Shown in pieces: positions 41,345 to 54,231 of a stretch of 64,000 nucleotides of DNA. The notes under the pieces are model-generated. The model did no database searches, was not told where the DNA came from, and was given only the letters and a program-made list of their open reading frames with translations. How positions within the stretch are numbered: the stretch's first letter is position 1; every line of letters starts with the position of its first letter. The DNA is from Nitrosarchaeum sp. (GTDB taxonomy: Archaea > Thermoproteota > Nitrososphaeria > Nitrososphaerales > Nitrosopumilaceae): NCBI GenBank assembly GCA_002737445.1, contig NSIR01000002.1, positions 62,001 through 126,000 on the forward strand, given 5' to 3'. The position numbers and the translations under genes are program-made.

Positions 41345-42280
41345 CTATTGGAGATTCAATGGAATAGTTGCACTTCCCCATGGTTCTGAAATTCTAAAGA
41401 CATAATCTTTTGCAGGATCATAGATGAATTTTGTGGAGCCAGGTATTGGTATCATAGGACCAAATAACATGGTGAATTCTCTTGCGTTTCCTGGAGTTAG
41501 AACAATGTTTCCGTTTGTAAAGTCATTTGTAGAATAGTGGAATACATCTTTACCATTCCAAACATCATAGTTACAGATGGTGGGACCAGTACAGAACAAA
41601 GACACATTGTTAGTAGAACCGGTATTTTTAACAAGCATTTTAATTGTTAAAAGTGCCTGTCCGGTTGGAGAAATCTCAAATTCAGCACCTGGAAAATAAT
41701 AGGTAGCGGAACCAACTACATATTGAGTGGATTTTTGTTCGTACTCATATTCGGTGATTTTCAACTTTGCTTTGTCTACGCAAGTATATCTAGCATATGA
41801 CTGAAAAATGTCTTTACACTTGTCAAGATCTGCTTGAAGTCCTGCGAGTCTAGAACCATCAGATGTAGTTTTTGGAGCAGATTCAGGAGATTTTGATTGA
41901 GATGTAGTTTTTGGAGCAGATTCAGGAGATTTTGATTCAGATGTAGATAATGATATCACTCCGGTCTTAATCAAATGCTGAATGCCATTTATGAACTGAG
42001 TATCAGTGATTGTACCGTCTGCCCACCAACCTGCATTGTTCTTTACCCAAGGTGGAACAGATTGAGATTTTTCTGCAGATACTGTAGTTGGAGGAATTAC
42101 GATAATGCCGTCTTTGATCAGAAATTGTATTCCTTGAATAAATTCAGATTCAGATATTGTACCGTCTGCCCACCAACCTGCATTGTTCTTTACCCAAGCT
42201 GGAACTCCTTCTGCGTTAACAAATGGAGTTATTGATCCAACAAGGAGAATTGCAGCTATTGTGGCAACCGTTGGTTTCAT
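41345..42280 (-). CDS. Secreted protein with two AGWWADG repeats
   Basis: This exported protein has about 311 aa. Starting at ATG 42280 gives a clean signal peptide ('MKPTVATIAAILLVGSITPF' then VNA-EG). Two repeats of about 45 aa follow ('PAWVKNNAGWWADGTISESE', 'PPWVKNNAGWWADGTITDTQ'), then a 13-aa low-complexity duplication (SKSPESAPKTTSQ) and a beta-rich C-terminal domain. The AGWWADG unit is common in secreted thaumarchaeal proteins. TATA 'atatttaat' (42303-42311, read on the minus strand) is 26 bp upstream, and the TTAGCACTAG-type element sits at 42329-42339, so it belongs to the regulon described here. Confidence 0.82.
   Translation of the reverse strand: MKPTVATIAAILLVGSITPFVNAEGVPAWVKNNAGWWADGTISESEFIQGIQFLIKDGIIVIPPTTVSAEKSQSVPPWVKNNAGWWADGTITDTQFINGIQHLIKTGVISLSTSESKSPESAPKTTSQSKSPESAPKTTSDGSRLAGLQADLDKCKDIFQSYARYTCVDKAKLKITEYEYEQKSTQYVVGSATYYFPGAEFEISPTGQALLTIKMLVKNTGSTNNVSLFCTGPTICNYDVWNGKDVFHYSTNDFTNGNIVLTPGNAREFTMLFGPMIPIPGSTKFIYDPAKDYVFRISEPWGSATIPLNLQ
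41862..41946 (-). repeat. 39-bp tandem duplication inside the secreted protein gene
   Basis: Two near-identical 39-bp units (41862-41900, 41901-41939) plus a 7-bp start of a third encode the Ser/Pro-rich linker. One mismatch separates them, so the duplication is recent or under exchange. Confidence 0.85.
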
Positions 42281-42328
42281 TATGATAAATTTTGCAATCA
42301 TCATATTTAATCTAATGCCAAATGACTA

Positions 42329-42339
42329 TCTAGTGCTAA
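42329..42339 (-). promoter_or_regulatory. Regulon element 1 (ctagtgctaaa)
   Basis: The exact element lies with its CTAG core centred 50.5 bp upstream of the secreted protein start (42280) and about 18 bp upstream of its TATA box. A weaker copy 'ctaatgccaaa' lies at 42311-42321. Confidence 0.7.
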
Positions 42340-42372
42340 ATAATGATGATCAAATATAATGAGATGGATAAT

Positions 42373-42383
42373 CTAGTGTTAAA
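42373..42383 (+). promoter_or_regulatory. Regulon element 2 (ctagtgttaaa)
   Basis: One mismatch to the consensus. The core is centred 59.5 bp upstream of GTG 42434 of the DUF1722 gene, with TATA 'tttttaaata' (42404-42413) between. The element is in the opposite orientation to most others relative to its gene. Confidence 0.65.
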
Positions 42384-42433
42384 ATGAATTCAGCATATTC
42401 AGGTTTTTAAATAAACAACATGAAATTTGAAAA

Positions 42434-42994
42434 GTGAAGGAAGATAATACACGATTTGATGATAGAAATTACAAAATATCAGAAAACAATGTAATAGAAT
42501 ATGTTTTGCAACGATTTCAAGATGTAAAGCACTCAAATAAAATTAAAAATTTAGTCAAATTTCAAGCCGCAAACAAATACCTGATAATGGCACATCATCA
42601 AGCAGAGTTGAAAAACCTAGAAAACATAGCTGTAGGTTACAAAAAAATACCATTTTCAGTCATGTCACAGGAGTATGAGGATCACTTTAGAACTGCCATG
42701 ACAAAAAAGCCAACAGTAAAAACTCATACAAATGTATTTATGCATATTTTCGGATATTTTTCAAAGTATCTTACTCAAAATGAAAAGCAGTTATTTTTTG
42801 AGATGTTAGAACAATTCAAAGAAAATAAAATAACTGTGGGAAACATGCTCTTGGAAATAAGTTGTATGGTATATCGCTTTGACAGCACATACCTTGCCAA
42901 TCAAACATACTTTTTGTTATATTCAGATGTTCAGTCTAGAAGTTTATTTCAGGCATTAGATAAAAAGGATGTTTCAGAGGAATTAAATTCATAA
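42434..42994 (+). CDS. DUF1722 family protein, photolyase partner
   Basis: This 186-aa helical protein of the DUF1722 (YbgA C-terminal) family shows 'LVKFQAANKYLIMAHHQAEL' and 'THTNVFMHIFGYFSKYLT'. In bacteria this domain is frequently encoded beside photolyase genes, as here, where photolyase follows after 25 bp. Function unknown. It starts at a leaderless GTG with TATA 26 bp upstream and a regulon element further upstream. Confidence 0.85.
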   Translation: MKEDNTRFDDRNYKISENNVIEYVLQRFQDVKHSNKIKNLVKFQAANKYLIMAHHQAELKNLENIAVGYKKIPFSVMSQEYEDHFRTAMTKKPTVKTHTNVFMHIFGYFSKYLTQNEKQLFFEMLEQFKENKITVGNMLLEISCMVYRFDSTYLANQTYFLLYSDVQSRSLFQALDKKDVSEELNS

Positions 42995-43019: not shown

Positions 43020-44378
43020 ATGACATTGTACAAAAAATCATTATTCATATTCCGTCGAGATTTAAGATTAGAAGACAATACAGGATTGATTTATGCATTA
43101 AAAAATTCTGAGGAAGTAATTCCATGTTTTATTATTGACGATCAAATAACAAATAATTTTAAAAATTCTTCACATAGAATAGAATTTCTGAATCAATCTC
43201 TAGTTGATCTAGATAAACAATTAAATAAAAAGAAAAATAGTTTAAGAATTTTTAAAGGTGAAACTAAGTCAATTATTCAAAAAATAATGTCAAAATATAA
43301 AATCAATGGCGTATTTTTAAATGGAGACTATACAAGATTTGCTCAAAATAGAGAGAGTGAAATTGAAAAATTATGCAATAAAAATAAAATTGGTTTTAAC
43401 AAATATACAGATTATTTATTACACATGCCTGATGAAATACAAACACAAAAAGAAACACCATATACAGTATATTCACATTTTTTTAAAACTGCAAAAACAA
43501 TTCCAGTAAGAAAAATAATAAAAAATAACTTTAACAATTATTACAAGGGTGAAATTAAAGATTCTATTTCAATAGACATGTTAAAAAAAAGAGTTAAAAA
43601 AAATACTAATGGTGGAAGAACCAACGCACTTAAAATTTTAAAAAATATCCACATGTTCAAAGATTACCAAAAAACTAGAAATTATCCGTTTTTAGATATG
43701 ACAACCAAATTATCAGCCCATAACAGATTTGGCACAGTGTCTATTCGTGAAGTATATCACACAATAAAAGAAAATCTAGGCGAAGAGCATATTTTGATCG
43801 GTGAGATATACTGGAGAGAATTTTTTACGTATATTTTACATCATTTTCCAAATTCACAATTTAAAACATTTAAGAAAAAATTTCAAAACATACAGTGGAG
43901 TTCAAATGTACAAGATTATCATGCGTGGTGTGAAGGAAAAACAGGATTCCCCATTGTTGATGCAGGAATGAGACAATTAAACAAAACAGGATTCATGCAC
44001 AATAGAATTAGAATGGTTGTTGCATCATTTCTTACAAAAGATCTACACATAGACTGGAAGAAAGGAGAAAGATATTTTGCAGAAAAACTCGTAGATTATG
44101 ATCCTGCAGTAAATGCAGGTAATTGGCAGTGGGCTGCATCTACTGGATGTGATGCAGTGCCATATTTTAGAATATTTAATCCATGGCTACAACAAAAAAA
44201 ATTTGATCAGGATTGCAATTACATTAAAAAATGGATCCCAGAATTAGAATCAGTTCAACCTAATGAAATACATAATCTTTGGGAAAAACGACCCGATGGT
44301 TTAACATATCCAAAACCAATAATTGATCATAGTATAGAATCAGCAAAAGCAAAAGAAATTTTCAAAATGCAAAAATAA
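43020..44378 (+). CDS. phrB: Deoxyribodipyrimidine photolyase (class I CPD type)
   Basis: This flavoenzyme uses blue light to split pyrimidine dimers. The 452-aa protein starts 'LFIFRRDLRLEDNTGLIYAL' (antenna domain). It has the FAD-binding blocks 'SAHNRFGTVSIREVY', 'GEIYWREFFTYILHHFP', 'WCEGKTGFPIVDAGMRQL', 'HNRIRMVVASFLTKDL' and 'NWQWAASTGCDAVPYFR'. The last blocks are canonical for CPD photolyases. It is co-transcribed with DUF1722 behind a regulon promoter, linking it to the predicted B12 photoreceptor. Confidence 0.96.
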   Translation: MTLYKKSLFIFRRDLRLEDNTGLIYALKNSEEVIPCFIIDDQITNNFKNSSHRIEFLNQSLVDLDKQLNKKKNSLRIFKGETKSIIQKIMSKYKINGVFLNGDYTRFAQNRESEIEKLCNKNKIGFNKYTDYLLHMPDEIQTQKETPYTVYSHFFKTAKTIPVRKIIKNNFNNYYKGEIKDSISIDMLKKRVKKNTNGGRTNALKILKNIHMFKDYQKTRNYPFLDMTTKLSAHNRFGTVSIREVYHTIKENLGEEHILIGEIYWREFFTYILHHFPNSQFKTFKKKFQNIQWSSNVQDYHAWCEGKTGFPIVDAGMRQLNKTGFMHNRIRMVVASFLTKDLHIDWKKGERYFAEKLVDYDPAVNAGNWQWAASTGCDAVPYFRIFNPWLQQKKFDQDCNYIKKWIPELESVQPNEIHNLWEKRPDGLTYPKPIIDHSIESAKAKEIFKMQK

Positions 44379-44392
44379 TTTAAAAAAATAAA

Positions 44393-45772
44393 TTAAATAG
44401 GTTTTCCTTTGTATTGATAATCAATTACTTTATGAAATGTATTATGAGATGCAATTATTGTGATTACAACAACAAACATACCAACAAAGTTTCTTACTGT
44501 GATTATTTCATTAGGGGGTGGAGCTAATATAGAAGTCTGAAATACAACATAGAAATTGTCAAATGACCAAAATGCAAGAGTTATCCATGACAAAATACCG
44601 CTGATCATAAATCCTAGACGAGTTTTGCTTTTTACAAATATTATTCCAGATATAATTGCAATATACCAAACAATTCCAGCTGCAATCCATCCAGGATTAT
44701 AAACGTCAGGTCGGTCATCTAGCCAATAATAGGTAGTGCCAATAATCGCCATGGCAATTAATGAAACAAGTAAAAGTTTTTGATTGATTTTAAAACCAGT
44801 TTTCTCCTCTCTAGGATTTGTTTCAGGAGGGTTTTCCTTCATTTCCTTTGTTGCGGTATCTATTGCCTCACGGACAGATTTTAATCTGATTGGGATAATT
44901 GTAGTAATAGAATTATCAGATACAATGGTATCATGAACAAGACTATCAATTAATGGTCTTGCCAATGATGCCTTTACCGGAGTAATAAGATCTACCCAAT
45001 ACGAGGAAAGTCTAGTAGTAAGAAAAGGAATTTGAATTACAAAGATATTTTTATTTAAATAAGCAGAATAAACACGCATTAGTTCTTCATATGTCATAGT
45101 ATCAGGTCCTCCAATTTCATAGATTTTTCCACTTGTTTCAGGATTATTCATGCAACCTACCAGATATTCTATCACGTCATCAACAGCGATTGGTTGTGCA
45201 AGTGATTTGACCCAAGATGGGGTTACCATTACAGGTAGTCGTTCAACAAGATAACGAAGCATTGCATACGAACCTCCCTGTGCTCCAATTATTAATGACG
45301 CACGTAATTGGGTTACAGGAATATTTCCAGATGCTAAAATTTCACCTACTTCTTTTCTGCTTTGCATGTGTGGGGATAATTCTAAACTATCATTTACCAA
45401 TCCACCAAGATAAATTATTCTTTTAACATTGGCTTTTGTTGCAGCATTGAGAAAATTTTGAGCCTGAATTCTTTCTCTAGATGCAAATTCTTTCCATTTT
45501 TCTTTGCTTCCCTCCATAGAATGAAGAAGATAATATGCAATATCAATTCCAGACATGGTTTTTTCCAATTGATCAACATCAAAAACATCAGCCTGAACAT
45601 ACTTCACATTATTTGAATCTTGAATTTTTTTTCTACTCATTCCTTTTATGGCATATCCAGATGAAGACAGAAATGAGATCAGTCTAGAACCAATAAAACC
45701 CGTGGCACCAGTTACTAAAATAGAATAAGGTTTTGATTCAGAAAATGAGTAATCTAATATTTTTTGATTCAT
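44393..45772 (-). CDS. SDR (NAD(P)-binding) protein with C-terminal membrane helices
   Basis: This 459-aa protein has an N-terminal extended SDR domain ('SILVTGATGFIGSRLISFLS' nucleotide-binding site; 'YYLLHSMEGS'; 'RIIYLGGLVND') and a C-terminal membrane part with about four helices from residue 340 on. It may act on a membrane lipid or quinone. The ATG overlaps the TGA of a 32-codon upstream frame (45769-45867) that starts at the regulon promoter, so translation is probably coupled to it. Confidence 0.85.
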   Translation of the reverse strand: MNQKILDYSFSESKPYSILVTGATGFIGSRLISFLSSSGYAIKGMSRKKIQDSNNVKYVQADVFDVDQLEKTMSGIDIAYYLLHSMEGSKEKWKEFASRERIQAQNFLNAATKANVKRIIYLGGLVNDSLELSPHMQSRKEVGEILASGNIPVTQLRASLIIGAQGGSYAMLRYLVERLPVMVTPSWVKSLAQPIAVDDVIEYLVGCMNNPETSGKIYEIGGPDTMTYEELMRVYSAYLNKNIFVIQIPFLTTRLSSYWVDLITPVKASLARPLIDSLVHDTIVSDNSITTIIPIRLKSVREAIDTATKEMKENPPETNPREEKTGFKINQKLLLVSLIAMAIIGTTYYWLDDRPDVYNPGWIAAGIVWYIAIISGIIFVKSKTRLGFMISGILSWITLAFWSFDNFYVVFQTSILAPPPNEIITVRNFVGMFVVVITIIASHNTFHKVIDYQYKGKPI

Positions 45773-45914: not shown

Positions 45915-45925
45915 CTAGTGCTAAA
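45915..45925 (-). promoter_or_regulatory. Regulon element 3 (ctagtgctaaa)
   Basis: Exact consensus. The core lies 49.5 bp upstream of ATG 45867, with a TATA-like box between. The left flank 'taatac' makes it a partial palindrome. Confidence 0.7.
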
Positions 45926-45987: not shown

Positions 45988-45997
45988 TTAGCACTAG
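45988..45997 (+). promoter_or_regulatory. Regulon element 4 (ttagcactag)
   Basis: Exact consensus, overlapping an imperfect opposite copy ('ctagtggtgaa', 45994-46004), so it is the most palindromic site. The core is 51.5 bp upstream of ATG 46047 of the B12-binding protein, with TATA 'aattaaata' at 46015-46023 between. Confidence 0.72.
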
Positions 45998-46046
45998 TGG
46001 TGAAAATTAGCATTAATTAAATAGGTTATTCAAAGATTAGAAAAAC

Positions 46047-46889
46047 ATGGTTTACCTAAGAGCAAAAAAAGTAAAATCGGATAACTATCTATATTTAGTA
46101 AAAAGTGTATGGGATTCTGAAAAAAATACGTCAAGACAAGAGATTGTAAAATATTTAGGTAAAGCATCAGAAATATCTAAAGACGATATACCAATAGATT
46201 ATAGAAATAATCCAAAAATTTTATCAGCATTAGCATTACATAATCCAGATGACATTGAAAAAAGAGAAGAATCAACAAAAAAATCAAAAGAATGGCTGTA
46301 CAAAAAATTAACGGAGGGGGATATTCATTCATCTGTAAAAATTTATGAAGAATACATTAAAATTTTTAATTCTGCAAATTTTTTTGATAAAATTTTAAGA
46401 CCAGTGATGTATAAAATAGGTGATGATTGGGCTAACAACAAAATAAGTATTGCGACAGAACATGTTGCAAGCAATGTTGCTCAAGCACTTGTTAAAATTA
46501 TAATGGATCAAGTTACAGGAATGGTTAACAAAAAGAAAATTCTTCTTTGTGTTCCAGTTGGAGAAGAACATCATTTAGGTTGTGATGTTTTGGAGACATA
46601 TCTTTCAATAAAGGGATTTAAAGTATACAATATGGGTACATCATTACCAACAGAATCAATACTTAGTTTTATTGAAAGTAACAAACCAGATGTAATACTA
46701 GTTTCAATTACATTAGAAGATAACATACTAGCAGGACAAAGATTAGTAAAAAAGATCAAGGAACAATATAACATTCCAATATTAATTGGTGGATTTGCAT
46801 TGCAATCAAAAAAAATACCAAAATTTGAGGCAACAGTAATTTCAGACATACCACTTGATAAAATTCCAAAAATTCTCAGAACAGCATAA
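46047..46889 (+). CDS. CarH-like adenosylcobalamin-binding putative photoreceptor
   Basis: This 280-aa protein has three parts. Residues 1-55 ('YLRAKKVKSDNYLYLVKSVW', 'SRQEIVKYLGKAS') form a small basic beta-rich domain unlike the MerR helix-turn-helix of CarH; it resembles the N-terminus of some transposases. Residues 75-155 are a helical B12-cap with W128-x9-E138-H139, the W-x9-EH signature of light-sensing CarH. Residues 163-280 are a B12-binding Rossmann domain with E-x-H-xx-G (E173, H175, G178) giving the lower ligand. It is predicted to sense light by photolysis of adenosylcobalamin and to control the surrounding genes. DNA binding is inferred. Confidence 0.82.
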   Translation: MVYLRAKKVKSDNYLYLVKSVWDSEKNTSRQEIVKYLGKASEISKDDIPIDYRNNPKILSALALHNPDDIEKREESTKKSKEWLYKKLTEGDIHSSVKIYEEYIKIFNSANFFDKILRPVMYKIGDDWANNKISIATEHVASNVAQALVKIIMDQVTGMVNKKKILLCVPVGEEHHLGCDVLETYLSIKGFKVYNMGTSLPTESILSFIESNKPDVILVSITLEDNILAGQRLVKKIKEQYNIPILIGGFALQSKKIPKFEATVISDIPLDKIPKILRTA

Positions 46890-47415: not shown

Positions 47416-47425
47416 CTAGTGCTAA
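47416..47425. promoter_or_regulatory. Regulon element 5, shared by two divergent promoters
   Basis: 'ctagtgctaa' with left flank 'atagaa' matches the full palindrome TTAGCACTAGTGCTAA at 14 of 16 positions. TATA boxes lie about 20 bp away on both sides (47388-47396 and 47445-47454), serving ATG 47368 (minus) and ATG 47476 (plus). Confidence 0.72.
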
Positions 47426-48241: not shown

Positions 48242-49576
48242 TTACGCATTCAAATAAGAGATAATTTTCGGATAACAAAGAAGAGAGCTGTGAGCCGCAG
48301 AATCGGTTCCAATACCATAACTTATTGTAGAATCTCCAACAAAAAATAGCCCCTTTATTCCAGGTATTTCATGAGGCATTTTTGATTTCCAAACCATTCC
48401 AGGTTCTTTAACTACAGATTCCACTAATTTCCATGCCATAGGCCTTTCCCAAAGTAGTGATGAGGTAAATTTAGGATAAATTGAGGAGATTTCTTTTTTC
48501 ATATCATCAACAATTGTTTTGATTTTTTTTGGATCATCTGCCACTGAAGGATGCACCGGAGTACCGGTGATTATCAGATGTTCTCCAGGAGGAGATACAG
48601 ATGGAGTGATATTAGAAATAAAAAAAATACCCTTTGTAGTGTAATGATCACCAACAGGAAAAACTATTTGCTTTGAATCTAACTTGGAATTTAATGCAAA
48701 ATGAACTTCCACCACTGCAGTCCTTTTGTCTAATCGGTTTATTTTTTCAACAAATTTATCATCAATTATATTTTTTTCAAATAATTCATTCAGAGCCATA
48801 TATGCAGGATAAGATACAACCACACAATCGGATTGAATAAAATCATTATCAGAAGTAATAATTCCAGTAACTATAGAATTTTCAATAATAATTTTCTTTA
48901 CAGATTTGTTTAAATAAATTTCACCATTTTTTTCTAAGATGTAATTAGCTAAGACTTTGGATATTGAATCATATCCTCCATCTTCAGGATATGCAAATTC
49001 GCTTGTTCCTCCTCTGAAAGGATTTGCACGGATTATAGTTCTTGCAAACTCACCCAATGAGATATGCTCAGCAGTATCAGCAAATGCAAGCATACACACT
49101 GCTTCAAAAAATGCATTTGTATTAGAATCTAGTTTTTTTGTAATTTCGGTTAAAGATAGATCATCCCAAGACTCTGTTTTTTTAATAGAAGTAAAAGCCA
49201 TTGGAAGAAGAATATTCAATAAACGGATTCTACTTTTAAGAGGAATTAATGAAAGTTGTAATAAATCACTTATGCCTTTAGGATATTTATGAAATCCAGT
49301 ATCAGAAAAGAATGCAATTTTATCTACTGTTGCAAGTTTTAGCCTATTCTGAATGCCAATTTTTTTAAAGACACTGAAAATTGCGGATTTTTTGTAAAAC
49401 GGCATTATGTGAAAGCCATTATCTAGTATATGACCACGAAATTTCATGGATGTGGTTCTTCCTCCCAATTTTGATTGCTTTTCAATTATTTTTACTGGAT
49501 GATTATTTCTGGCAAGTAATGCAGCAATGGTCAAGCCTCCAACACCAGCACCTATTGTACAAATAGATTTCACCAT
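48242..49576 (-). CDS. FAD-dependent oxidoreductase, phytoene-desaturase-like
   Basis: This 444-aa protein has the amine-oxidase/CrtI fold: 'TIGAGVGGLTIAALLARNNH' at the N-terminus (FAD dinucleotide site), 'KLGGRTTSMKFRGHILDNGF' near residue 40, and a C-terminal 'GLFFVGDSTISYGIGTDSAA' FAD segment. It may desaturate or isomerise a carotenoid or another polyprenyl lipid. No phytoene synthase is present in the window. It starts leaderless, with TATA at 49596-49604 and a regulon element at 49624-49633. Confidence 0.85.
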   Translation of the reverse strand: MVKSICTIGAGVGGLTIAALLARNNHPVKIIEKQSKLGGRTTSMKFRGHILDNGFHIMPFYKKSAIFSVFKKIGIQNRLKLATVDKIAFFSDTGFHKYPKGISDLLQLSLIPLKSRIRLLNILLPMAFTSIKKTESWDDLSLTEITKKLDSNTNAFFEAVCMLAFADTAEHISLGEFARTIIRANPFRGGTSEFAYPEDGGYDSISKVLANYILEKNGEIYLNKSVKKIIIENSIVTGIITSDNDFIQSDCVVVSYPAYMALNELFEKNIIDDKFVEKINRLDKRTAVVEVHFALNSKLDSKQIVFPVGDHYTTKGIFFISNITPSVSPPGEHLIITGTPVHPSVADDPKKIKTIVDDMKKEISSIYPKFTSSLLWERPMAWKLVESVVKEPGMVWKSKMPHEIPGIKGLFFVGDSTISYGIGTDSAAHSSLLCYPKIISYLNA

Positions 49577-49623: not shown

Positions 49624-49633
49624 ATAGTGCTAA
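49624..49633 (-). promoter_or_regulatory. Regulon element 6 (atagtgctaa)
   Basis: One mismatch (first base). The core is 49.5 bp upstream of ATG 49576. It overlaps the last codons of the neighbouring SRPBCC gene. Confidence 0.65.
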
Positions 49634-50088
49634 CTAATGAGATTAGAATCATTAGAAGAAATTTTATTTTCAGCTGAACATATGAATTCATCCATAACAA
49701 TCATCATTTGATTGACAACATATCCTTTCAAAAAATTAAACACTTTTAGGATTCCAGAGAATTTAATATTTAAATCGATAATAATTTCAGTGCCATTTTG
49801 AGTAGAGTTATAGAATTCAATGAATGATGTACCCTTTAACGGTCCAGTTAAAATGTAAACTTTATGAATATTTGTAGGAATTATTACATGTCTAGTTTTT
49901 ACTTGAATAACAAATCCAAGAAAAGAAATTTTTTCAAGAACAATCTTTTCATTGGGTTCATCTTTAATTATTTTTAATGATTTGAAATATTTTGGTAAGA
50001 TTAGATGAAAATTAGCAATATCTGTGCTAATATGAAAAATTTGTTGCTGTGGTAATGTACTAGTTTTACATAATCTCAAATTTTTCAA
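49630..50088 (-). CDS. SRPBCC/START-like ligand-binding protein
   Basis: This 152-aa protein fits the helix-grip fold used to bind hydrophobic ligands: 'QQIFHISTDIANFHLILPKY' at the N-terminus, strand pairs through 'LTGPLKGTSFIEFYNS', and a long C-terminal helix ('LKGYVVNQMMIVMDEFI'). SRPBCC proteins often accompany light-induced carotenoid or lipid genes in bacteria. It overlaps the upstream 123-aa gene by 4 bp. Confidence 0.75.
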   Translation of the reverse strand: MKNLRLCKTSTLPQQQIFHISTDIANFHLILPKYFKSLKIIKDEPNEKIVLEKISFLGFVIQVKTRHVIIPTNIHKVYILTGPLKGTSFIEFYNSTQNGTEIIIDLNIKFSGILKVFNFLKGYVVNQMMIVMDEFICSAENKISSNDSNLIS

Positions 50089-50456
50089 CTAGTTATCACG
50101 TCATCAGTATAATCAAAAATATTAGATTTAGTTATTTTAAGATCAGGATAGACAACTAAAAGATATTTTGCCAATAGTGCAAATGATAATTTTACTCCAT
50201 CAGTTTTATCAGGATCAGTTACGGGGTATAAACGAATAGTAGTTTTTAATTTCGTTGTAGAAATTTCAATTAAAAATTCACGGTGTATATTGTCAATGAT
50301 TATTGTAGGAAGAAGGGCACTAAAACCATTATTCTGAACAAAGATGGCAGATATTTTTATCAAAACAGGGTTTTTTTGAAATAGACCTGTAAAATTTTTA
50401 GATAGATCCAATAAATCAATTTTCCTGCTAAATACTACATGAGGCAATATATTCAT
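50085..50456 (-). CDS. Hypothetical protein, first gene of the SRPBCC operon
   Basis: This 123-aa soluble alpha/beta protein shows 'FSALLPTIIIDNIHREFLIE' and 'VKLSFALLAKYLLVVYPDL'. I recognise no family. It begins leaderless at ATG 50456: TATA 'gtcatatatatca' (50473-50485) is 24-26 bp upstream and a regulon element 48.5 bp upstream. The ATGA overlap with the SRPBCC gene indicates coupled translation. Confidence 0.68.
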   Translation of the reverse strand: MNILPHVVFSRKIDLLDLSKNFTGLFQKNPVLIKISAIFVQNNGFSALLPTIIIDNIHREFLIEISTTKLKTTIRLYPVTDPDKTDGVKLSFALLAKYLLVVYPDLKITKSNIFDYTDDVITS

Positions 50457-50502
50457 AATATAATAATAAATGTCATATATATCAAAAATAGAGAGATATA
50501 TC

Positions 50503-50513
50503 TGGTGCTAAAT
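50503..50513 (-). promoter_or_regulatory. Regulon element 7 (ctggtgctaaa)
   Basis: One mismatch in the core (A to G). It is centred 48.5 bp upstream of ATG 50456. Confidence 0.65.
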
Positions 50514-50543: not shown

Positions 50544-50553
50544 TTAGCACTAG
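50544..50553 (+). promoter_or_regulatory. Regulon element 8 (ttagcactag)
   Basis: Exact consensus. The core is 48.5 bp upstream of ATG 50600, with TATA 'tatttaaataga' (50569-50580) between. A half-site 'ttagcaatta' lies just upstream at 50532-50541. Confidence 0.72.
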
Positions 50554-51940: not shown

Positions 51941-51951
51941 CTAGTGCTAAA
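51941..51951 (-). promoter_or_regulatory. Regulon element 9 (ctagtgctaaa)
   Basis: Exact consensus. The core is 49.5 bp upstream of ATG 51893 of the DICT-like gene. Confidence 0.72.
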
Positions 51952-52330: not shown

Positions 52331-52340
52331 TTAGCACTAG
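52331..52340 (+). promoter_or_regulatory. Regulon element 11 (ttagcactag)
   Basis: Exact consensus. The core is 49.5 bp upstream of ATG 52388, with TATA 'tattaatata' at 52357-52366 between. Confidence 0.72.
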
Positions 52341-52387
52341 ATTAGATTTTTGGCATTATTAATATAGTGGAAATCAAAATTGACAAC

Positions 52388-52489
52388 ATGTCACCAGGTA
52401 TGCTGCACCCCTGTGAAAAATGTAGTAAGACATATCAAGATTGGTCTTGTGATAATTGCTATGCAGAACGTATAATGAGTGTGAAGTAA
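52388..52489 (+). CDS. 33-aa zinc-finger protein
   Basis: The frame reads 'MSPGMLHPCEKCSKTYQDWS' followed by 'CDNCYAERIMSVK': two C-x2-C pairs 8 residues apart, a minimal zinc knuckle. ATG 52388 fits leaderless transcription; an in-frame GTG at 52367 would add 7 residues but overlaps the region of the TATA box. The stop is one base before the PPOX gene. Confidence 0.65.
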   Translation: MSPGMLHPCEKCSKTYQDWSCDNCYAERIMSVK

Positions 52490-52490
52490 A

Positions 52491-52928
52491 ATGATACAAA
52501 AATTAGATAGTCAAAAACTTGAAAGTACGATTAGTGATATGAAGATTCCAATAAGACTAGCTTGTATAACACTCACTGGGGCTCCTATTGTGGTGTCCTT
52601 ATGGTACACAATATTTGATGGAAAAATTTATTGCGCAACACAAAAAAAGGCAAAAATTATCTCATATATTCAAAACAATCCAGTATTTGGATTTGAAATA
52701 GCAACTGATAGTCCACCATATAGGGGGGTTAGAGGCCATGGAAAAGTCAAAGTCATAGAACACATGGGAAAAAATATTCTTGAAATTTTAATAGACAAAT
52801 ATTTAGGTAAAAAGATATCAACATTATCAGAATTTTTAAGAAATAATTCAGAAAATGAAGTAGCAATAGAGATAACACCTGAAAAATTATTCACATATGA
52901 TTATTCTAAACGGATGAAAGGGGTTTAA
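52491..52928 (+). CDS. PPOX-type flavin/F420-binding protein
   Basis: This 145-aa split-barrel protein of the pyridoxamine-phosphate-oxidase family shows 'RLACITLTGAPIVVSLWYTI', 'GKIYCATQKKAKIISYIQNN' and 'YRGVRGHGKVKVIEHMGKNI'. Members bind FMN or F420 and reduce small molecules or protect against oxidants. It lies in one operon with two tiny zinc-finger genes behind regulon element 11, so a photo-oxidative-stress role is a reasonable guess. Confidence 0.82.
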   Translation: MIQKLDSQKLESTISDMKIPIRLACITLTGAPIVVSLWYTIFDGKIYCATQKKAKIISYIQNNPVFGFEIATDSPPYRGVRGHGKVKVIEHMGKNILEILIDKYLGKKISTLSEFLRNNSENEVAIEITPEKLFTYDYSKRMKGV

Positions 52929-53194: not shown

Positions 53195-53204
53195 TTACCA
53201 CTAG
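53195..53204 (+). promoter_or_regulatory. Regulon element 12 (ttaccactag)
   Basis: One mismatch (G to C), with a partial inverted copy ('ctagtgaatta') to the right. The core is 49.5 bp upstream of ATG 53252; TATA 'tttatata' at 53223-53230 lies between. Confidence 0.65.
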
Positions 53205-53251: not shown

Positions 53252-53323
53252 ATGCGAAATGAAAGAAATCAAGTACACATGTGTAAGATTGTGATCAAAG
53301 ATATCTCCATGTTGCCAGAGTGA
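53252..53323 (+). CDS. 23-aa leader peptide frame upstream of the second TFB
   Basis: ATG 53252 opens 'MRNERNQVHMCKIVIKDISM' plus LPE, ending in a TGA that overlaps the GTG (53320) of the TFB gene. TATA and regulon element are at the standard distances, so this ATG is the predicted transcript start. Like the 32-aa frame before the SDR gene, it may couple or regulate translation of the gene behind it. Confidence 0.5.
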   Translation: MRNERNQVHMCKIVIKDISMLPE

Positions 53324-54231
53324 AAAAAATGTTAACAGAATTAATTCATCAAGATGATTGTAAGAAAGATAAAGTAGTCACAGATCCTACTACAGGTGAA
53401 GTAGCATGTAGCAATTGCGGGGCAGTTCTTCCTGAAAAATCAATATATTCAGGATCAGAAAATATAGGAACTAATAGTGAGGGATATTTATCTAGCAGGG
53501 TAGGTGGAAAAATTTCTTTAAAAATGGCAGACATGGGGCTATCCACGATAATAGAAGCACAAGATAGAGATTCTACGGGCAAGTCGCTCTCCAAAGAAAA
53601 TCGTAGAATGTTTTATCGTTTGCGTATGTGGGATAGAAACAGTAGATCTGCAAATACAGTCAAATCATTTCCAAAAGCATTTACTTTACTTGATGGAATA
53701 AAAACTAAACTTGCACTACCCGAATCAGTAGTTGAGCAAACAGCATACTTGTTTAGAAAAATATCTGCAAAAAAAATCACCAGTGGAAGATCTACTACAG
53801 CAATTCTTTGTGCAACAACTTACATTGTATGTAGATTAACCAATACACCAAGAACCCTACATGATATTGCAGATGTTGGAAATGTAAAAGTAAAGCAACT
53901 GCAAAGAATATACAGAATTCTCATCAAGGAATTAAATATTTATCCAGCAGCATACAACCCAAATGAATTCGTTGCACGAGTTACCAAAGCAGTCAATGTA
54001 ACAGAGAAAACTCAAAGACTGACATTTAGAATTCTAGATATTGCTCAAAAAAAAGGCATTACAACAAGTAAGAATCCACTTTCAATGGTAGCTGCAGCAG
54101 TATACCTAGCAATGCTAAAAAATAATGAAAAAATTTCACAGATGAAAATCTCCCAAATTTCAGGTATTAGTGCAGTTACAATTAGAGACAGAGCTAAAGA
54201 GATCAAAAACTTGATGGGAGGTGAAATTTAA
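53320..54231 (+). CDS. tfb: Second TFB with an altered zinc ribbon
   Basis: This 303-aa general transcription factor has two cyclin repeats ('EQTAYLFRKISAKKITSGRS', 'AAAVYLAMLKNNEKISQMKI') and a C-terminal 'VTIRDRAKEIKNLMG'. In the zinc ribbon 'DDCKKDK' ... 'ACSNCG', counting back from the last pair leaves only one N-terminal Cys; the position of the other ligand holds Gln, with a His one residue earlier. Start is GTG 53320 or ATG 53329. It is the only TFB in the regulon and may be its dedicated initiation factor. Confidence 0.9.
   Translation: MKKMLTELIHQDDCKKDKVVTDPTTGEVACSNCGAVLPEKSIYSGSENIGTNSEGYLSSRVGGKISLKMADMGLSTIIEAQDRDSTGKSLSKENRRMFYRLRMWDRNSRSANTVKSFPKAFTLLDGIKTKLALPESVVEQTAYLFRKISAKKITSGRSTTAILCATTYIVCRLTNTPRTLHDIADVGNVKVKQLQRIYRILIKELNIYPAAYNPNEFVARVTKAVNVTEKTQRLTFRILDIAQKKGITTSKNPLSMVAAAVYLAMLKNNEKISQMKISQISGISAVTIRDRAKEIKNLMGGEI

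Follow-up and report, generated by a model that had tools for sequence, protein, structure and literature searches.

A putative B12 photoreceptor-type regulator of ammonia-oxidising archaea, its conserved promoter repeat and a candidate light-defence regulon

The gene at positions 46047-46889 of the window, as we call the whole 64,000-nucleotide stretch of DNA analysed, raised the question of whether ammonia-oxidising archaea carry a light-sensing regulator built on cobalamin and, if so, which promoters it might control. Few cells in the ocean are as abundant as these archaea. The inhibition of nitrification by light is amply documented (literature cited in PMC9239080), and the open-access literature searched gave no precedent for an archaeal or thaumarchaeal B12 photoreceptor, or for a light-sensing mechanism of ammonia-oxidising archaea. 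The original prediction was of a CarH-type sensor joined to an N-terminal domain other than MerR. The window is part of contig 6 in an archaeal genome of 1.19 Mb, and the gene and its domains are these:

46047-46889, forward strand: B12 photoreceptor-type regulator, 280 aa; intact ORF with ATG start, orthologues across ammonia-oxidising archaea.
46047-46247, forward strand: N-terminal beta-beta-beta-alpha domain (aa 1-67), putative DNA-binding module, common to DDE transposases and Fic proteins; AF2 pLDDT 89, HMM matches.
46296-46502, forward strand: helical B12-cap domain (aa 84-152), G125xxW128-x9-E138H139; PF02607 (B12-binding_2), E 1e-10, and alignment with TtCarH.
46539-46793, forward strand: Rossmann B12-binding domain (aa 165-249), E173-x-H175-x2-G178-x41-S220-x-T222-x25-G248G249; PF02310 (B12-binding), E 1e-12, residues conserved.

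Near-full-length orthologues of 30-93% identity were found in 15 of 60 relatives and on at least 75 named contigs, the nearest named relative being that of Nitrosarchaeum sp. BD3 (93%). The family extends over the ammonia-oxidising archaea, with orthologues in three families of the order, the window's own among them. Nitrososphaera-like genomes (family f8: G363, G390 and G324) hold up to three paralogues each (L176-L181).

Both motifs named in the original prediction, W128-x9-E138-H139 and E173-x-H175-x2-G178, were found exactly as stated in the 280-aa protein, and the claimed distance of 36 residues between H139 and H175 was correct. In a joint alignment, W128, E138, H139 and H175 correspond to W131, E141, H142 and H177 of Thermus TtCarH. 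Since none of the 68 aligned orthologues (30-93% identity) departs from G125, W128, E138, H139, G172, H175 or P201, the cap and axial motif is not a chance resemblance; position 173 is E in 67 of them and D in one. The family description in PMC9304148 consists of Wx9EH plus D/ExHx2G/P-x41-SxT/V-x22-27-GG, which appears here as W128, E138 and H139, followed by E173/H175/G178, S220/T222 and G248G249 at spacings of x41 and x25. The photoreceptor signature as set out in PMC11796333 (GxxW, EH, GxxH, GxxxP) is likewise present as G125-W128, E138H139, G172-H175 and G197-P201, the Gly of GxxxP being substituted in some orthologues. The best NCBIfam model was that of CarH, NF052513, at 58.5 bits over residues 81-267, far short of the 400-bit equivalog cut-off. 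An AF2 model of the full protein, built with 68 sequences, reached a mean pLDDT of 88.5, with a pTM of 0.47 that leaves the relative orientation of the domains uncertain. In this model a helical cap and a Rossmann fold are seen, residues 75-160 fall within the B12-cap family, and the top PDB matches by Foldseek are the B12 domains of TtCarH and photocobilins (E about 1e-11). Published motifs and fold matches thus agree with a CarH-type sensor, for which a response to light is predicted from the sequence.

A corrinoid methyl-carrier or enzyme domain of the MtaC/MtbC or MetH kind, joined to an unrelated N-terminal extension, would account for the lower-ranking NCBIfam hits, which are to corrinoid proteins and MetH, but all of these score far below their cut-offs. 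MetH, the only other B12-binding match in the window's genome, lacks the invariant W and EH in the joint alignment, in that genome's own copy as elsewhere; no corrinoid methyltransferase was found among the neighbouring genes, and the operator and regulon described below are a further argument against such an identity, which we consider highly improbable.

One residue sets the protein apart from TtCarH. His132, which in TtCarH forms the bis-His light state, is not conserved, the corresponding position 129 being A, E, S, D and others among the 68 aligned orthologues and A129 in the window protein. In TtCarH lacking this residue (H132A) most of the protein remains tetrameric in the light (PMC10442372). 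The light state must therefore differ from that of TtCarH. However, CtMerR and the photocobilins, validated as light-responsive, also lack a His132 equivalent, so bis-His ligation is not universal among validated photoreceptors, and a different light state is to be expected here rather than a loss of function. It also speaks for the sensor reading that the genome encodes a CobA/CobO/BtuR adenosyltransferase. The regulator would bind AdoCbl, undergo photolysis and change its oligomeric state.

The N-terminal domain was examined separately. Residues 1-67 are basic in charge and were modelled by AF2 with a mean pLDDT of 89 as antiparallel strands 2-9, 12-23 and 28-39 followed by helical segments, with R5, K7, Y14, Y16-V18, S20, W22, Q31, Y36-G38, D47 and P49 invariant. 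No credible match to MerR or to any other Pfam or NCBIfam family was obtained, which bears out the claim that the N-terminus is not MerR-like. No PDB entry matched by sequence or fold, and assignment to a known fold was rejected with a best Foldseek E of 0.6 and partial RNase-H-like strand matches only; residues 1-60 gave no plasmid match. When 398 genomes of the phylum were searched with a profile of the domain, matches with E < 1e-18 were confined to the window's order, nearly all of them full-length fusions with the B12 module. Weaker, significant matches fell on the starts of the transposases L184 (8e-10) and L188 (6e-7) and on the Fic proteins L189 and L190. DDE_Tnp_1 was recognised in the next frame of L184 (E 2.5e-17), and L188 is DDE-like by eye only. 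The suspected resemblance to transposase N-termini was thus borne out as homology to the N-termini of DDE_Tnp_1 transposases (L184 and L188; profile A3). The two Fic-domain proteins come from one genus of the window's family. The occurrence of the domain at the start of transposases and Fic proteins points to a mobile, probably DNA-binding module, and this company, the basic charge and the operator data taken together lead us to infer that it binds DNA.

The promoter of the gene offers a candidate for the DNA so bound:

45988-45997, forward strand: operator repeat 1, TTAGCACTAG, starting 56-61 nt 5' of the start codon in most orthologues.
46007-46015, forward strand: operator repeat 2, TTAGCATTA, adjoining BRE/TATA; recognised by conservation.
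46017-46023, forward strand: TATA box TTAAATA, ending 23 nt 5' of the ATG; sequence and conservation.

A palindrome had been proposed at 45988-46004, but CACTAGTG is self-complementary only locally. The element conserved between species is instead a direct repeat (45988-45997 with 46007-46015) of the form TTRGCACTAg-N8-10-TTRGCAYTA, overlapping BRE/TATA; a palindromic operator was rejected because the comparative data favour this direct repeat. TTRGCAYTA occurs twice in direct orientation, 18-20 nt apart and with no more than 2 of the 18 positions mismatched, in 75 of 77 orthologue upstreams, which are non-independent samples, so that the reversed matrix and genomes without the gene are the better controls. 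The 77 upstreams are divergent apart from the double repeat, and shuffled upstreams never came below 3 mismatches to it. Across orthologues, repeat 2 runs into a TATA element (TTAAATA/TTATATA) that ends about 23 nt before the ATG, a distance suggestive of a near-leaderless transcript; in a Nitrosopelagicus-like group repeat 1 begins about 44 nt 5' of the start codon. The double repeat also precedes orthologues in the two other families of the order. In its strict form it gave 17 matches in 61 genomes and none in the reversed control. Of the 16 genomes that have the gene, 11 carry the strict form and five do not, against 1 of the 45 genomes that lack the gene (Fisher p 1e-7). The TTRGCACTA repeat also stands in front of several of the paralogues L176-L181. 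A strict double repeat at G021:C9:76548-76574 lies in a genome without a full-length orthologue and may be a relic or the site of a second regulator.

This association suggests that the operator is bound by the N-terminal domain of the regulator. Since association alone links DNA and protein, the repeat might belong to another regulator that also controls 46047-46889, with the N-terminal domain binding a partner or RNA. We regard this as improbable, as the repeat tracks the gene through three families and through rearranged neighbourhoods, genomes without the gene seldom have its strict form, and the domain is basic and common to transposase N-termini.

Further sites and putative target genes were located in the window:

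41345-42304, reverse strand: secreted protein, putative target; ORF, operator in homologues.
42330-42339, reverse strand: operator repeat 1 of the secreted-protein gene (second repeat 42312-42321); matrix scan, homologues.
42373-42382, reverse strand: third site, reverse-oriented, 5' of the DUF1722-photolyase operon's TATA; matrix scan.
42434-42994, forward strand: DUF1722 protein; PF08349, E 5e-32.
43020-44378, forward strand: DNA photolyase; PF03441, E 2e-81.
44393-45772, reverse strand: NAD-dependent epimerase/SDR protein; PF01370/PF13460.
45915-45924, reverse strand: operator site for the divergent SDR gene, with TTTAAATA following it; matrix scan.
47416-47425, reverse strand: operator site of the 47020-47406 gene; matrix scan.
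48242-49576, reverse strand: FAD-dependent amine oxidoreductase/desaturase-like protein, putative target; PF01593, E 7e-32.
49624-49633, reverse strand: operator site of the FAD amine-oxidoreductase gene; matrix scan.
50502-50511, reverse strand: operator site of the 50085-50456 and 49630-50088 genes; matrix scan.
50544-50553, forward strand: operator site of the 50600-51163 genes; matrix scan.
51941-51950, reverse strand: operator site of the 51339-51893 gene; matrix scan.
52331-52340, forward strand: operator site of a 33-aa zinc-ribbon-like ORF and the PNPOx-like gene (52491-52928); matrix scan.
53195-53204, forward strand: weaker operator site TTACCACTAG upstream of TFB; matrix scan.
53320-54231, forward strand: transcription initiation factor B (TFB), putative target; PF00382, E 8e-30.

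Exact TTAGCACTAG occurs in 8 copies in the 1.19 Mb genome (reversed control, 0), and 7 of the 8 lie within 10 kb around the regulator. These local copies face the promoters of the FAD amine oxidoreductase, the SDR and small proteins, and flank the DUF1722-photolyase operon; the lone distant copy, at C1:195158, falls inside a membrane-protein ORF and is probably a chance occurrence. A scan with an operator matrix trained on the orthologues' own promoters gave 10 sites in the window at or above 13.8 bits, all of them between 42330 and 53204 and in front of genes, as a rule with a TATA-like element at much the same distance after them. The degenerate form TTRSCACTAK has 20 sites in the genome, 10 of which fall in the 0.9% of it that makes up the regulator region, but the reversed control also totals 20; the sites elsewhere are thus at background, and a local regulon only is claimed, what is significant being that half of the sites cluster here. 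The secreted protein, for which Pfam gave no match, contains two PWVKNNAGWWADG repeats. Between the operator at 52331 and the PNPOx-like gene lies the 33-aa ORF (approximately 52386-52489, forward strand; CxxC...CxxC), which has recognisable homologues with the core WxCDYCY at about a dozen related loci.

Across related loci, some of them closely related to one another, the matrix found 547 sites against 15 when reversed. Counting sites upstream of homologues on either strand (for TFB, within about 250 bp), we found one for 19 of 19 PNPOx-like genes, 45 of 46 TFB genes, 25 of 26 homologues of the 61-aa gene and 37 of 39 of the 123-aa gene, as well as for the secreted protein (47/51) and the FAD oxidoreductase (38/43); for the HD-domain neighbour the count was 0 of 9. 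One of five TFB genes in the window's genome, the local TFB has only the weaker site TTACCACTAG in the window, but its link to the operator is carried by the homologues elsewhere. The regulator's neighbourhood is conserved across relatives but rearranged, with an SDR gene near the regulator at 73 of 95 loci (a few of which are duplicates of one another), DUF1722 at 57, the FAD oxidoreductase and TFB at 49 each and photolyase at 19. Direct control of the photolyase was rejected, as it lies behind DUF1722 in most genomes and has its own site in only 4 of 14 photolyase upstreams.

This gene content has a bacterial parallel. A LitR cluster of Pseudomonas comprises photolyase, SDR and FAD oxidoreductase (PMC9758184), and RudS (TudS-DUF1722) has been found in one operon with LitR and photolyase (PMC11417400). 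The overlap is evidence for light that does not depend on the sensor motif. It also bears on the possibility that the CarH-like domain senses B12 level or redox/oxidative state and that light is not the physiological signal. The fold is common to other cobalamin domains, the genome encodes a CobA/CobO/BtuR adenosyltransferase, and His132 of TtCarH is missing; in addition, ammonia-oxidising archaea reportedly make cobalamin, and cobalt chemistry is oxygen-sensitive. However, the W, E and H of the cap that contact the adenosyl group are invariant, photolyase, DUF1722, SDR and FAD oxidoreductase form a gene set characteristic of light regulons, and no gene of cobalamin synthesis or uptake was identified among the annotated neighbours. 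We therefore give such a sensor a low probability.

We judge it probable that the protein is an autoregulated AdoCbl photoreceptor-regulator of a local light-defence regulon in ammonia-oxidising archaea, most likely acting as a repressor in the dark. In the dark, AdoCbl would be clasped by the helical cap, with W128, E138 and H139, on one side and by the Rossmann domain, with its axial H175, on the other. It would thus stabilise an oligomer in which the N-terminal beta-sheet domains occupy TTRGCACTAg-N8-10-TTRGCAYTA, next to BRE/TATA or across it. So bound, the regulator would repress its own gene and those of photolyase, DUF1722, SDR, FAD oxidoreductase, small proteins and a TFB. On exposure to green, blue or UV light the Co-C bond would be cleaved and the assembly would change, and the genes would be turned on. 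The motif set, the predicted sensor fold, operator conservation, the clustering of sites before genes and the co-occurrence of operator and gene were computed; AdoCbl binding, photolysis, operator binding by the N-terminal domain, oligomerisation and the direction of control are proposals.

The same photoreceptor and operator could instead serve an activator that recruits TBP/TFB in one light state. Repeat 1 sits upstream of BRE/TATA, a position that archaeal activators also use, and in the DUF1722-photolyase promoter the sole site is a reversed one some 30 nt 5' of TATA. The divergent regulatory region at 42312-42404 contains three sites, of which this third is reversed likewise in many relatives, and it is a poor fit to simple TATA occlusion. 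Against activation, repeat 2 directly adjoins BRE/TATA or overlaps it, both in the regulator's own promoter and in others, which is what occlusion predicts, and the characterised CarH/LitR proteins are dark repressors (PMC9304148). Activation is thus possible, if unlikely, and blocking of BRE/TATA in the dark is favoured as most likely by the CarH analogy and by the overlap of repeat 2 with BRE/TATA.

If TFB belongs to the regulon, the switch could also reach further promoters. Some bacterial light systems reset transcription through sigma factors. In a similar way there may be an order-wide light system in which a B12 photoreceptor, with a beta-sheet DNA-binding domain derived from transposases, directly governs a conserved promoter code that takes in a dedicated TFB. 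Light would then reset transcription by way of an alternative general initiation factor, a proposal to which we give even odds.

The analysis provides a concrete candidate photoreceptor, DNA site and set of target genes for ammonia-oxidising archaea, and suggests that the 46047-46889 protein is the missing light switch of those of ocean, lake and soil. What is new here is the spread of the family in ammonia-oxidising archaea, with its operator and local regulon; the original prediction did not include the order-wide operator, the regulon, the archaeal host or the loss of TtCarH His132. If the proposed role is correct, B12 photoreception would be extended to archaea and coupled to cells regarded as B12 producers. 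The protein would also define a DNA-binding domain apparently common to regulator and transposases, and would provide archaeal-type promoters with a compact switch operated by green light.

Among the closest known systems are CarH and class I LitR, typified by TtCarH of Thermus thermophilus, with which the protein shares B12-binding_2 and B12-binding domains, Wx9EH, ExHx2G/SxT/GG, the predicted fold, an autoregulation-type promoter site and photolyase-type targets. In contrast to the strict family, however, the MerR-type N-terminal DNA-binding domain is absent, His132 is not conserved and the score is 58.5 bits against a cut-off of 400. The operators also differ, those of CarH/LitR being tandem 11-bp repeats nnnnTnnACAn (PMC9304148), whereas here a TTRGCACTA repeat recurs at a spacing of about 19 nt in archaeal BRE/TATA promoters. 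The SignatureFinder survey reports 1561 signature-bearing sequences, and its main text does not mention archaea, although such members could be included unremarked in its supplementary networks (PMC11796333). L183, a second paralogue in genome G242, has lost the W/E/H cap and retained the axial His and the N-terminal domain; in this it resembles CarA of Myxococcus and is possibly a CarA-like, B12-independent copy, of putative function, but it is archaeal and carries the regulator-type N-terminal domain. IS4/IS1634-like DDE transposases share with the N-terminal domain the core YxRxKk...YyYLVeS...Q..iKYLG and the same profile (E about 1e-6 to 1e-10), which establishes kinship and leaves DNA binding putative; there the domain is joined to a DDE nuclease, here to a sensor. 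The class II LitR clusters of Pseudomonas (PplR/PmlR) have photolyase, SDR, FAD oxidoreductase and RudS/DUF1722 in common with this locus, but unlike the archaeal protein their regulators are MerR-type, bacterial and tied to LOV photoreceptors. Finally, identity with a photocobilin was rejected, as the protein stops soon after the Rossmann domain and has no bilin-binding or other Pfam domain. CtMerR keeps its MerR domain, and the photocobilins SasPcob and AbDPcob have bilin-binding and/or diguanylate cyclase domains; neither has the regulator's N-terminal domain, and yet they carry the same signature and respond to light without the bis-His residue, showing how modular this sensor is.
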